Shown here: piece by piece, positions 3,579-7,371 of the stretch | Layout: every line of letters begins with the position of its first letter | Position numbering within the stretch: position 1 is the first letter of the stretch | Assembly: GCA_016928395.1 (NCBI GenBank) | Contig: JAFGKV010000185.1 | Coordinates: 1-17,594 of the forward strand | Source: Candidatus Fermentibacterota bacterium | Lineage (GTDB): Bacteria > JAFGKV01 | Direction of reading: 5' to 3' | DNA length: 17,594 bases | Made by a program: the position numbers and the translations under genes | The notes under the pieces: generated by a model | What the model saw: the letters and a program-made list of their open reading frames with translations, nothing else | Database searches by the model: none | Told to the model about the DNA's origin: nothing

Positions 3579-4382
3579 CTACCTGATGAAGGTGTCTTTG
3601 TCGTCGGTCGTGAAGGTCGAGAGGGCGTATGACGCCGTTGCGGAGAGGCCGGCCTTGCCCCCGAACTGCTCGGCGACTTCCTTCTCGATGACCTGATTGA
3701 GCAGATTCAGCGGAATGTCCACCGGGCAGGCCCGGGCACATTCCCCGCAATTGACGCAGCGCCCTGCCAAGTGCATGGCTCGTACCAGATGCCAGCCCAT
3801 GTTCCCCAGAGGATGAGCCGGCACCGGAATCCATTGGGGTTGATTCACCTCCACGATGCACTGGCTGCAGTAGCACATCGGGCAGGCTGCCCTGCACGCG
3901 TAGCATTTCAGGCATCGGGAGAACTCCTCCTGCCAGAATCGCCACCGCTCTTCCCGTGAAAGCGAGGCGATTTCGTCGAGGCAGTTCTGTTCCTCAGGCG
4001 AAAGCACAGCATCCGGCTTGCTCACCGCGCCTTCGATCTCCCCCAGGGTCTCTAGCCGGCGCACCCCGCCATCGGCCTCGGGAATGAGCGCGATGACATC
4101 GCGGTCTTTCACCTGCTGCTCCGAGGCCAATTGGAGGATCGACCGCAGAACCGCCTGGGTCCCAACTATGGCGGGCTTGCCCAATGACTTCACTTCCGGT
4201 TTCAGGAGATACACCGCCAGATTGTGCACGCACCGGTCATCGAAGATCAGGTCACCCACGCTGGTGGGGTCGCGGACCATGAGGGGGCGCGCCCCTCCCG
4301 CGCTCCCACCCCCAAAGCCGATCACTACCGCCGCTTCACCCGACTGCAGAAGGTCCCTTGCGGCATCCTGCAACCCTGTCAT
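3579..4382 (-). CDS. 4Fe-4S dicluster electron-transfer protein, FrhB-related (Flx subunit)
   Basis: 267 residues. The N-terminal ~150 residues resemble the coenzyme F420 hydrogenase/dehydrogenase beta-like fold, seen as short motifs IGFGGGS and DLIFDDRCVHNLAVYLLK. The C-terminal part has two ferredoxin-type clusters: C157-x2-C160-x2-C163-x3-C167-P and C209-x2-C212-x2-C215-x3-C219-P. Three extra cysteines (170, 172, 175) directly follow the first cluster. It is a soluble relay subunit by context; no transmembrane segment is visible. Its ATG shares ATGA with the mvhD stop (4379-4382), and its TAG stop is 6 bases before the next start, so translation is coupled on both sides. The link to FrhB is from general sequence impression; the Fe-S motifs are directly seen. 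Confidence 0.85.
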   Translation of the reverse strand: MTGLQDAARDLLQSGEAAVVIGFGGGSAGGARPLMVRDPTSVGDLIFDDRCVHNLAVYLLKPEVKSLGKPAIVGTQAVLRSILQLASEQQVKDRDVIALIPEADGGVRRLETLGEIEGAVSKPDAVLSPEEQNCLDEIASLSREERWRFWQEEFSRCLKCYACRAACPMCYCSQCIVEVNQPQWIPVPAHPLGNMGWHLVRAMHLAGRCVNCGECARACPVDIPLNLLNQVIEKEVAEQFGGKAGLSATASYALSTFTTDDKDTFIR

Positions 4383-4831
4383 ACTGCGATCCCTCCTGGC
4401 CGGATGTGAGCGGGAATGGTTTGCCGGTACTCGTCGTAGGGCCCCAGCTCCCTGACATTCGAGACGACGGAATTCACCAGATCAGCCCACTTGGCGCCCT
4501 CGGCCGCCGACACCCACGCGAAGTGAATCCGCCGGGTATCGACTCCCACGAAGTCCAGGAGCGCGCGCAGTACAATCCATCTCCGCCGCGCGTGGTAGTT
4601 GCCCGAGGTGTAGTGGCAATCAGCAGGATGGCAGCCCGAGATGATGATCCCGTCGGCGCCCTGGGTGAAGGCCTGCAAGACGTACATGAAGTCAATCCTG
4701 CCGGTGCACGGCACCCGAAGCACGCGCACGTTTGACGCGTACTTGATGCGGCTCGTACCCGTCAGGTCGGCGCCGGCATAGGTGCACCACGTGCAGACAA
4801 ACGCGGTGACCTTGGGTTCAAATTCCGCCAT
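4379..4831 (-). CDS. mvhD: MvhD/FlxD-type [2Fe-2S] electron-transfer subunit
   Basis: 150 residues, the usual length for the stand-alone MvhD (methyl-viologen-reducing hydrogenase delta) family. The five expected cysteines are present: C13-x2-C16, C42 in VPCTGR, and C67 and C72 in SGCHPADCHY. In methanogens MvhD docks on HdrA and hands it electrons from the donor module; FlxD is the bacterial counterpart in NADH-linked complexes. The start has AGGAG 7-8 nt upstream. It is normally found directly after or before hdrA; here 548 bp holding the four-helix-bundle cassette separate the two, and the stop codon of that gene lies inside the first codons of mvhD. Its own stop overlaps the next gene by ATGA. 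Confidence 0.93.
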   Translation of the reverse strand: MAEFEPKVTAFVCTWCTYAGADLTGTSRIKYASNVRVLRVPCTGRIDFMYVLQAFTQGADGIIISGCHPADCHYTSGNYHARRRWIVLRALLDFVGVDTRRIHFAWVSAAEGAKWADLVNSVVSNVRELGPYDEYRQTIPAHIRPGGIAV

Positions 4832-5327
4832 TGTGATCTCCTGGTATCCCGTTGGGCACAGGGTTCAGGGTTCGGGGTTCAGGAAGCCCCTGAGCATATG
4901 CGTCGTACTCCTCGGTGTCCTCCTGCACAGACTCCACGGGCCAGCGCCGGTCAGACTCGGGTAGATTCCTCTCGAGGGAACGTTCGATACCGTTGAGCAT
5001 GCGAATGCACTCCTGATATCGCGCACGATACTCCTCGTACGTTTCCTGTGTTTCGTAGCCTTTCAGCCACGCCATGTACAGGTGATGCACGGTCTCGGCG
5101 GCCTCTCCGCGACTCCGATTCACTCCTTCGATCTTGTTTCGCACATGCCGGTCATCGTATTTCTCGGCGAGCTGGCCAGCAGCGCTGTTTGACGCCCGTC
5201 GAGCCTGAGACCCCAGCTCGTACTTCTCCTCGATTGGCCACCGCTGCGTAAGCTTTCCGACACATATGTGCAGACGACAGAGCTTCTGGTACACGACCAG
5301 GTCCTCTAGCCTACGATATGCTGCCAT
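4818..5327 (-). CDS. Four-helix-bundle protein (23S rRNA intervening-sequence protein-like)
   Basis: 169 residues from ATG at 5325-5327. The core (about residues 1-125) fits the S23/IVP-like helical family, with LEDLVVYQKLCRL, then EEKYELGSQARRASNSAAGQLAE, and a final amphipathic helix ECIRMLNGIERSLER. Family members are small cytoplasmic helical bundles with no assigned enzyme activity; relatives occur inside 23S rRNA insertions and as accessory proteins of diversity-generating retroelements. Neither context is present here. The last ~45 residues look non-native: they are read through the flanking heptamer repeat and into the mvhD leader, and the stop falls 14 nt inside mvhD. The Shine-Dalgarno-like AGGGGAG comes from the repeat itself. 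An upstream start at 5414 is rejected because it lies within hdrA. The gene has no evident role in electron transfer and appears inserted. Confidence 0.82.
   Translation of the reverse strand: MAAYRRLEDLVVYQKLCRLHICVGKLTQRWPIEEKYELGSQARRASNSAAGQLAEKYDDRHVRNKIEGVNRSRGEAAETVHHLYMAWLKGYETQETYEEYRARYQECIRMLNGIERSLERNLPESDRRWPVESVQEDTEEYDAYAQGLPEPRTLNPVPNGIPGDHNGGI
4854..4883 (+). repeat. Left inverted heptamer array of the cassette
   Basis: GGGCAC is followed by units AGGGTTC, AGGGTTC, GGGGTTC and a partial AGG. It overlaps the 3' coding end of the four-helix-bundle gene, where its complement encodes the Pro/Asn-rich tail (LPEPRTLNPVP). Confidence 0.8.
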
Positions 5328-5330
5328 CTC

Positions 5331-5378
5331 CCTCTCCCCTGAACCCTGTTCCCTGAACCCTGACCCCCGAACGTGCCC
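5331..5378 (-). repeat. Right inverted heptamer array of the cassette
   Basis: Read on the minus strand, GGGCACGTTC is followed by units GGGGGTC, AGGGTTC, AGGGAAC, AGGGTTC and AGGGGAG. It begins two bases beyond the hdrA stop and ends at the start codon of the four-helix-bundle gene, so its last purine-rich unit serves as a ribosome binding site. Confidence 0.8.
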
Positions 5379-5379
5379 C

Positions 5380-7371
5380 TCACAGCGCCACGAGTTCCGC
5401 AAAGACCTGTTCATTCGTGAAGCCCTGCAAATCGATGGCTTTCACGCGGCACAAGGCGACGCAAGTGCCGCATCCCTGGCACAGGCCGGGGTTCACCTTG
5501 GCCACAACCTTGAGCACCCTTCCCTGCCTATCCTTGATCTCCTCGCGCTCGATGGCCCGGTAGGGGCACGCGCTCTCACAGAGGAAGCAGCCCACGCACT
5601 TGGAAAACAGCGGTGGCGCCGTGCGATGGACCACGGCGATCACCGGCTCTCGCGACAGCTCGCTCTGGGAAAACAACCCTACCACCTTCGCCGCGGCGCC
5701 GGATGCCTGGGACACCGTTTCCGGGATATCCCGGGGCGCCTGGCATGCTCCTGCCAGGAAGATCCCGGCGGTATTGGTCTCCACCGGCCTGAGCTTGGGA
5801 TGGGCCTCGGCGAAGAAGAAGTACGGATCATAGCTTATGTGCAGCTTCTGCGCCAGTTCCTCAGCGCCCTCGCCGGCCACTACGGCGGTGCCCAGCACCA
5901 CCAGATCGGCCCGCACGTCGATGGGTCGTCCGCCCAGGAGGGTGTCGGCGCCCTTCACCACCAGCTTCCCATCTTCCTCGTAAATGCGCGAAACACGGCC
6001 GCGGATGTAGGAAACGTGATCCTCCTCGATGGCGCGCCGGACGAACTCCTCGTACATCTTGCCGCCGGCCCGGATGTCCATGTAGAACACATAGGCCTTG
6101 CCATGGTGGACCTTGTGCTTGTACAACATGGCGTGCTTGGCCAGATACATACAGCAGATCTTGGAGCAGTATTCGATACCCTTGGCGGGATCCCGGGAGC
6201 CCGCGCAGGAAATGAACACCACCGTCTCGGCGATCGTGCCGTCGGAAGGCCTGCGGATCTCGCCCAACGTCGGCCCCGAGGCCGAGGCAAGGCGCTCGAA
6301 CTGGAGGCCCGTGATCACATCGGGATACTTGCCAAAGCCGTACTCGGGGAAGAAGTCGCACCCCTTGACCTCAAAACCCGTGGCAGCCACGATGGCGCCC
6401 ACATCGGCCTCGATGATCGTGTCTTCCTGGTCGTAGCGGATCGCCTTGGTGGGGCAGACCTTCTCGCAGACACGGCACTTGCCCTTCTGGAAGTAGAGAC
6501 AGTTGTCCGTATCGATCACCGGCTTATTGGGTACCGCCTGGGGAAACGGCACATAGATGGCGGTGCGCGTTCCCACACCCGCGTCGAACTCGCTGGGAAT
6601 CTTCTTCTGGGGGCACTTCAGGGCGCAGAGTCCGCAGCCCGTGCAGAGCGTCTCGTCGATATGGCGGGCCTTCTTGCGGATCTTCACGTTGAAGTTGCCG
6701 ATGAATCCCTCGACACTCTCCAGCTCCGAGTAGGTGTGGAGCGTGATGTTGGGATGCTGGGCGACCTCTACCATCCGAGGCGTGAGGATACACTGGGAAC
6801 AATCCAGCGTAGGGAAGGTCTCGGAAAGCTGGGCCATGTGCCCGCCGATGGAGGGTTCCCGCTCCACCATGATGACTGTGTGCCCGGCATTGGCGATGTC
6901 CAACGCCGCCTGAATGCCGGCGACGCCGCCGCCAAGCACCAATGCCGTCTTGGTTACGGGCACTTTGATGGGAAAAAGTGGCTCATTCCGCCGCACCTTC
7001 TCCACCATGACCCGCACCAAGTCCGTGGCCTTCTCCGTTGTAGCCTCGCTCTTCTCGTGCACCCAGGAGCAGTGCTCCCGCACATTGGCCATCTCGCAGA
7101 GGTACGGGTTCAATCCGGCGTCGGCGCAGGCCCTTCGGAACGTTGGCTCGTGCATGCGGGGCGAGCAGGCGGCCACCACAACCCCTGTCAGGTTCTTCTC
7201 CTTGATGGCATCCCGGATCATGGTCTGCCCGGGATCAGAGCACATATACTTGTAGTCGACGCTGTGGACCACGCCGGGGACACCCGACATCGTCTCGGCA
7301 ACCTTTGCGCAATCCACCGTTGCACTGATATTCTCGCCACAGTGGCAGACGAACACACCGATTCGTGCCAT
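5380..7371 (-). CDS. hdrA: HdrA, FAD-containing iron-sulfur subunit of heterodisulfide reductase-type complex
   Basis: 663 residues, normal for a stand-alone HdrA. The N-terminal domain begins ARIGVFVCHCG (C9, C11, with C44 and C69). A dinucleotide fold LGGGVAGIQAALDIA starts at 146, and the flavin/cluster loop GGHMAQLSETFPTLDCSQC ends near 194. Inserted ferredoxin motifs are C243/246/249/253 and C291/299/302/306; the C-terminus has C592/595/598/602 and C631/634/637/641. The last motif has Arg where Pro usually follows the fourth Cys. HdrA's FAD is the site of flavin-based electron bifurcation in characterised Hdr complexes, splitting electrons between ferredoxin and HdrB. Start ATG 7369-7371 has GGAGG 9 nt upstream, and the gap to hdrB is 22 nt. 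Downstream, the cassette separates it from its usual partner mvhD. Cytoplasmic. Confidence 0.96.
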   Translation of the reverse strand: MARIGVFVCHCGENISATVDCAKVAETMSGVPGVVHSVDYKYMCSDPGQTMIRDAIKEKNLTGVVVAACSPRMHEPTFRRACADAGLNPYLCEMANVREHCSWVHEKSEATTEKATDLVRVMVEKVRRNEPLFPIKVPVTKTALVLGGGVAGIQAALDIANAGHTVIMVEREPSIGGHMAQLSETFPTLDCSQCILTPRMVEVAQHPNITLHTYSELESVEGFIGNFNVKIRKKARHIDETLCTGCGLCALKCPQKKIPSEFDAGVGTRTAIYVPFPQAVPNKPVIDTDNCLYFQKGKCRVCEKVCPTKAIRYDQEDTIIEADVGAIVAATGFEVKGCDFFPEYGFGKYPDVITGLQFERLASASGPTLGEIRRPSDGTIAETVVFISCAGSRDPAKGIEYCSKICCMYLAKHAMLYKHKVHHGKAYVFYMDIRAGGKMYEEFVRRAIEEDHVSYIRGRVSRIYEEDGKLVVKGADTLLGGRPIDVRADLVVLGTAVVAGEGAEELAQKLHISYDPYFFFAEAHPKLRPVETNTAGIFLAGACQAPRDIPETVSQASGAAAKVVGLFSQSELSREPVIAVVHRTAPPLFSKCVGCFLCESACPYRAIEREEIKDRQGRVLKVVAKVNPGLCQGCGTCVALCRVKAIDLQGFTNEQVFAELVAL

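Follow-up and report, generated by a model that had tools for sequence, protein, structure and literature searches.

Genes annotated as S23 or 'four helix bundle' are found across many bacterial phyla without an assigned function; they have been interpreted as ribosomal proteins or as cas-associated genes. The S23 protein (S23p) is known from selfish intervening sequences (IVS) of 23S rRNA genes, the complementary ends of which are cut by RNase III (PMC4990558), and S23 genes within cas loci have been listed as possible cas genes (PMC3936711). Heptamer repeats are described in Xanthomonas and Nostoc, with 70-75 convergent pairs noted (PMC4692102), and the heptamer TAACTGA is described in Beggiatoaceae and cyanobacteria (PMC4679880). 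The searched passages of these two papers make no link between the heptamer repeats and S23 genes, and full-text searches of open-access literature, a scope outside of which most subscription papers lie, turned up no report that connects S23 genes with heptamer arrays at their flanks.

Here we analyze a 526-bp stretch within a 17,594-nucleotide contig of a Candidatus Fermentibacterota bacterium (JAFGKV010000185.1; hereafter, the window denotes this entire contig). With a probability that we put at roughly 0.7, this stretch belongs to a widespread class of single-gene mobile cassettes, in which an S23 gene lies between convergent quasi-tandem arrays.

A single-gene cassette between hdrA and mvhD

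The features of the locus are as follows.

4379..4831, minus strand: mvhD/FlpD, intact, downstream neighbour (PF02662, E 1.1e-47)
4818..5327, minus strand: S23 / 23S rRNA IVP four-helix-bundle gene, 169 aa from the likely ATG (PF05635, TIGR02436, AlphaFold, Foldseek)
4854..4883, plus strand: left arm, GGGCAC plus AGGGTTC-type heptamer array, on the mvhD side, that is, the downstream arm of the S23 gene (sequence; inverted match score 20)
5337..5379, minus strand: right arm, inverted heptamer array led by GGGCAC, located upstream of the S23 gene and adjoining the hdrA stop (sequence, inverted match, predicted RNA fold)
5380..7371, minus strand: hdrA, heterodisulfide reductase subunit A, HdrA2-like, intact, upstream neighbour (NF040770, E 2.5e-235, a match below the full-length cut-off of the model)

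An earlier reading of the sequence alone (hereafter, the sequence-only reading) placed a 23S-IVP-like gene between inward-facing AGGGTTC arrays, each led by GGGCAC, in the gap between hdrA and mvhD; this arrangement is confirmed at 4854-5379, and so are the integrity of both neighbours and the tightness of the remaining operon junctions, all of which are overlaps or gaps of at most 22 nt. On the plus strand, the left arm reads GGGCAC-AGGGTTC-AGGGTTC-GGGGTTC-AGG, and the right arm, read on the minus strand, is GGGGCAC-GTTCGGGGGTC-AGGGTTC-AGGGAAC-AGGGTTC-AGGG. In inverted orientation, the two arms align over 30 nt with a score of 20. Of 5,000 placements with the same geometry in the window, a set that includes neighbours of the arms themselves, 3 reach this score.

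The longest S23 ORF in the window extends from 4818 to 5414, and the likely start is the ATG at 5327, which is preceded by GGGGAGAGGGAG and yields a protein of 169 aa; the purine-rich end of the right arm adjoins this ribosome-binding site. The S23 frame continues through the downstream (left) arm, where it encodes the C-terminus EPRTLNPVPNG, and overlaps the start of mvhD by 14 nt. The AGGAG ribosome-binding site of mvhD itself is preserved and lies between the cassette and the mvhD ATG. No target duplication is evident in the window.

In profile searches, the encoded protein matches PF05635 with 73.1 bits (cut-off 33.8, E 2.6e-20) and TIGR02436 with 70.3 (cut-off 24). The PF05635 match is the only domain match in the cassette, which encodes no Y1 (PF01797) transposase, and no reverse transcriptase (RT) is present among the operon proteins scanned by profile. 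The AlphaFold model (pLDDT 87, about 97 in the core) consists of four helices (residues 11-27, 32-57, 62-88, and 94-120) and a low-confidence C-terminal tail. The best Foldseek match in the PDB is 2gsc (XCC0516; E 6.8e-6, TMt 0.92), followed by a Bacteroides S23 protein and then by Avd (4dwl, 8ub7), with probability 1.0, TMt of about 0.8-0.9, and sequence identity of about 10%. With XCC0516 as the query, no S23 was found in 50,697 phage records.

The hdrA-mvhD gap is 548 nt long in the window vs at most 241 nt in other lineages, where the two genes can also be fused, and none of the other junctions examined in these lineages contains an S23 gene. This comparison fits insertion into a formerly short junction but does not amount to an allelic empty site. 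Both close relatives examined, a congener and a genome of the same family, lack mvhD and the hdrA-mvhD operon, which is why the window copy has no such site. Thus, of the junctions without the cassette that the sequence-only reading proposed to align, the short, uninterrupted ones were found in distant lineages, but there is no empty allele from a close relative.

Inverted arms across S23 loci

We examined 88 S23 loci from 36 diverse genomes, comprising the source genome and relatives that mostly belong to different families, by local alignment of the upstream flank with the reverse complement of the downstream flank, using the 99th percentile of mismatched pairs as the cut. Inverted arms exceed this cut at 58 of the 88 loci (14 of 88 in direct orientation), with a mean score of 22.3 vs 10.0 for mismatched pairs; about a third of the loci fall short. 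None of the 25 control mvhD genes that were treated alike scored above the same cut. Clear periodicity is detected in 45 of the 88 upstream and 43 of the 88 downstream S23 flanks, compared to 5 of 341 control windows; the best period is most often 7, then 8, and in some cases, 6 or 14. The arms are visible by eye at named loci from Xanthomonas, Clostridia, Bacteroidota, Planctomycetota, Chloroflexota, and candidate phyla. Across the class, the cassette is roughly 400-550 bp in size, with one four-helix-bundle gene between two facing arrays, and the S23 insertions between neighbouring genes are mostly co-directional; the neighbour orientations derived from ORF calls were set aside as too noisy in high-GC genomes.

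Some related arrangements depart from this plan. In one genome (G010; L202, L203, L204), a dispersed element present in several copies carries a CTCCTTTTCAAAAAAAGTTC hairpin between two S23-like genes that diverge head to head, and its two halves are inverted copies of each other. The GxxExxY (PF13366) nuclease-like genes of the relatives (L364-L393) have inverted, word-like ends of the CACAGAG and CACAAAG types; 8 of 21 such loci, without S23, score above the 99th percentile of mismatched pairs, and these genes may be another cargo that cassettes of this kind carry.

Filled and empty insertion sites

On cyanobacterial plasmids, a cassette of about 420 bp occupies three unrelated sites (1, 4, and 5). 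The three cassettes are 78-82% identical, arms included, and align to each other over about 420 nt and no further: this is one element at three places. Site 1 is filled in Trichormus and Scytonema plasmids and empty in Nostoc linckia, N. carneum, Tolypothrix, and others, within a shared backbone that is 97-98% identical; the empty allele reads AAAAAGTAATTAACAAATAAAT, and in the filled allele, the insert is flanked by GTAA(T) on either side. There are also variants of site 1 in which the cassette is decayed or reduced to its arms. Filled and empty plasmids also occur for sites 4 and 5, where the flanks are about 91-93% identical. A target duplication was seen only at site 1: site 4 lacks 8 nt of the target, and site 5 is ambiguous. 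One plasmid S23 gene is antisense to its nrd neighbours. Sites 2 and 3 were not clean enough to define the ends, and the cas6|cas4 junction in Dolichospermum, considered as a clean empty site, was discounted given that it holds a different, 245-nt spacer. S23 genes also lie within cmr2|cmr3 and cas6|cas4 operons of cyanobacterial plasmids (L420, L421, L424), with flanking repeats that are inverted in two cases and direct in one, namely, the AAAGCTA arrays of L424.

In the Xanthomonas family, S23 is present in 109 of the 247 genomes. The accB|accC junction is filled in Xanthomonas, Luteimonas, and Dokdonella by an S23 gene with GGGAATC- or GGGATTC-type arms, and is empty, with a gap of about 10 nt, in 49 of the 247 genomes, 8 of which carry S23 elsewhere. 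By a strict pattern, carA|carB is empty in 9 genomes; where this junction is filled, the last carA codons are replaced by array-encoded ones, so that the cassette alters the tail of the host enzyme. At several such loci (L311, L312, L313, and others), CarA LFDRFTALM is followed by RDSGLGTRDSSSVQ in place of ENN. An in-frame CarA-S23 fusion, at which long open frames had hinted, is ruled out by the different frames of the two genes. Each site in Xanthomonadaceae tends to carry its own S23 lineage, which indicates that many copies are old and vertically inherited. Luteimonas G101 and other S23-bearing Xanthomonadales also contain many convergent GGGAATC pairs that are only about 70-130 bp apart, leaving no room for a gene; these are possibly gene-less derivatives of the cassette.

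The mobility of the class is manifest in the inverted arms, in polymorphic insertion with clean empty sites, and in the presence of the same cassette at unrelated sites. The view that mobility explains why S23 genes turn up in unrelated places is accordingly supported for the class by the element with three locations. The proposal of a mobile one-gene cassette, with array ends acting as terminal inverted repeats, holds for the class on the same grounds; for the window copy, which has no empty allele in close relatives, it is the best reading.

One word per cassette

Across 134 loci, a set that includes the Xanthomonadaceae, the arms of the same locus have a mean similarity of 23.1 vs 11.3 between S23 loci of one genome. 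At carA|carB of Xanthomonadaceae, there are six commonest words among 16 genomes, and the commonest heptamer is identical in both arms at 13 of the 16 loci, compared to 23% for arms taken from different genomes. The two related S23 genes of another genome (G136) carry GAAACCT and GAAATCT, respectively, throughout both arms. Because the two arms share a word while cassettes differ, the arms change together, as expected if they pair with or correct each other; homogenization between paired arms would then change the word in both at once.

In the source genome, there are 102 AGGGTTCAGGGTTC dimers vs 0 for the reversed control. Most of these belong to solo arrays that mark one end of a composite intergenic repeat with multiple copies, and AGGGTTC arrays are found without S23 at dozens of places. 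Two further convincing S23 genes are present in this genome, both with inverted arms, but of other words, AGCTGTC-type and GGAATGATGG-type; a fourth match (C10) was below the cut-off and was treated as spurious. Three cassettes with three words rule out a species-specific word and make the arrangement, not the array sequence, the hallmark of these elements. The expectation that the array sequence would mark the family thus failed, given that the word varies among cassettes whereas the architecture and the period are kept. The search for the same ends elsewhere in the source genome succeeded in part: the AGGGTTC word recurs, but mostly in solo arrays, and the other S23 genes carry different words.

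The composite intergenic repeat (L043-L102 in the source genome, G000; e.g., L065:2605-2900 and L070:1534-1790) mostly has the AGGGTTC array at its end and contains AGTCGGGCCTCTGAGGG and an inner inverted pair, GGTTGAGAGTAC / GTACTCTCAAAC, along with nested REP-like hairpins. Many contigs of the source assembly end in this repeat.

The solo arrays bear on the possibility that S23 relates to heptamer arrays as RAYT does to REPs: together with a host nuclease or polymerase, S23 would recognize, copy, and disperse the arrays, the solo arrays being the products. Inverted REPs, which are also scattered over the whole genome, invariably flank RAYT genes (PMC2817692), and similarly, the window gene is flanked by inverted copies of a repeat dispersed throughout its genome, the AGGGTTC arms with their 102 dimers. 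All five S23-bearing genomes checked hold 19-188 dimers vs 0 for the reversed control, and the known Xanthomonas GGGAATC repeat (PMC4692102) forms the arms of the accB|accC S23 genes. However, S23 contains no known catalytic motif, the GxxExxY genes have similar inverted ends without S23, and the other two S23 genes of the source genome use other words, so we consider this scenario unlikely.

Possible mechanism of movement

Under the mobile cassette reading, the window copy would be a selfish insertion into a previously intact hdrA-mvhD junction, tolerated thanks to its position between cistrons, its orientation along the operon, and a ribosome site of its own, with that of mvhD left intact. 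The arms may pair as foldback strands and serve as the recognized ends, and the cassette DNA would be moved by an enzyme encoded elsewhere, the leading candidate being a Y1/HUH transposase. The S23 protein might assist the movement; by analogy with Avd, it is probably a pentamer that binds nucleic acids.

The action of an enzyme encoded elsewhere, already supposed in the sequence-only reading, is suggested by the co-occurrence of S23 with Y1/RAYT-type transposases. Across 98 genomes, the counts of Y1_Tnp and S23 are correlated (rho 0.42, p 1.3e-5; 32/37 vs 30/61); the link of S23 counts to genome size is weaker (rho 0.23), and there is no co-occurrence with reverse transcriptase (rho 0.02). 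A role of S23 as an Avd-like RT helper is thereby ruled out as a general rule. The Y1-S23 co-occurrence may reflect the general load of mobile elements, and a Y1 enzyme acting on foldback ends is the leading candidate for the helper. The known IS200/IS605 elements produce no larger target duplications (PMC2817692), so a different enzyme is conceivable in view of the GTAA(T) at site 1. The Y1_Tnp genes themselves have inverted ends in 16 of 20 cases; in many lineages (L398-L417), these are RAYT-like, with short inverted ends, such as GGGGTCAGGTCTTGACATTT, right at the start and stop codons.

The cassette could, alternatively, be an RNA-level intervening sequence, with the arms forming a stem in the transcript, RNase III excising the cassette from the mRNA, and rare spread by an RNA route. 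There is precedent in the Coxiella IVS, which contains an S23p ORF and 28-bp complementary ends and is excised by RNase III (PMC4990558); the conservation of the same word in both arms and the co-directionality of most copies with the operon agree with this mechanism, and in the predicted transcript fold of the window, the arms pair and close the structure in both the MFE and the centroid models. This fold, however, is only modestly more stable than shuffles (z-score -1.9), S23 shows no co-occurrence with RT, one copy runs antisense to the genes beside it, and the duplicated GTAA(T) at site 1 is what a DNA insertion would give. Taken together, the plasmid insertions, this duplication, and the antisense copy at nrd favour a DNA-level element, and we regard the RNA route as unlikely.

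It is highly implausible that S23 is an ordinary, vertically inherited accessory or regulatory operon gene, with the arrays being slippage-prone spacers unrelated to mobility: the S23 lineages at carA|carB and accB|accC are indeed common to several genera, and S23 recurs in cas operons and is listed as cas-associated (PMC3936711), but the empty alleles are clean and their flanks nearly identical, one and the same cassette is found at unrelated sites, and random spacers would be neither inverted nor word-matched.

Comparison with known systems

If S23 genes are the cargo of heptamer-ended mobile cassettes, their scatter, their placement in operons, and their recurrence in cas loci are all explained, and 2gsc, a solved structure of unknown role with close relatives between accB and accC, gains a link to the heptamer repeat that is best known, and so far unexplained, in Xanthomonas. 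Where bacterial heptamer repeats come from can then be tested with defined pairs of plasmids, one filled and one empty. More tentatively, and with less than even confidence, we suggest that S23 cassettes are a new class of mobile elements with ends that are defined by architecture (inverted, with a period of about 7, and homogenized between the arms) rather than by a fixed sequence; that their activity generates the dispersed and so far unexplained heptamer arrays (GGGAATC, AGGGTTC, and perhaps TAACTGA and other cyanobacterial heptamers); and that the GxxExxY nuclease cassettes are a sister class with other cargo.

The heptamer repeats GGGAATC (PMC4692102) and TAACTGA (PMC4679880) resemble the S23 arms in unit length and intergenic location, and those of Xanthomonas often form convergent pairs. 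The Xanthomonas word GGGAATC is the arm word of the XCC0516-type cassette. The solo arrays lack the gene. Like MITEs and other non-autonomous insertion elements, S23 cassettes are short, have inverted ends and empty sites in relatives, and lack a transposase; unlike these, they encode a conserved protein, their ends differ from copy to copy, and there is no consistent target duplication. Avd of the diversity-generating retroelements (4dwl, 8ub7) shares the four-helix-bundle fold with the window S23, but the S23 cassette has no RT in the operon and no RT co-occurrence at the genome level. With the RAYT-REP units and REPINs (PMC2817692, PMC3116915), the cassettes have in common one small intergenic gene bracketed by inverted repeats that are dispersed in the genome. 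They differ from these units in that their cargo is something other than a Y1 transposase, cassettes of a single genome use different words, and the ends are heptamer arrays in contrast to the GTAG-headed palindromes of RAYT-REP.

The closest counterpart is the 23S rRNA IVS, such as that of Coxiella burnetii, an element of about 430 nt that has a patchy distribution and has been called selfish (PMC4990558). The protein family and fold are the same, and in both cases, a single ORF is bracketed by complementary ends. S23 cassettes differ in their quasi-tandem heptamer-array ends and in the presence of several copies per genome, each with its own word, and the window cassette occupies the hdrA-mvhD junction instead of a 23S rRNA gene. 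The best reading of the cassette is, therefore, a variant of the selfish 23S rRNA IVS element that lives between protein-coding genes.
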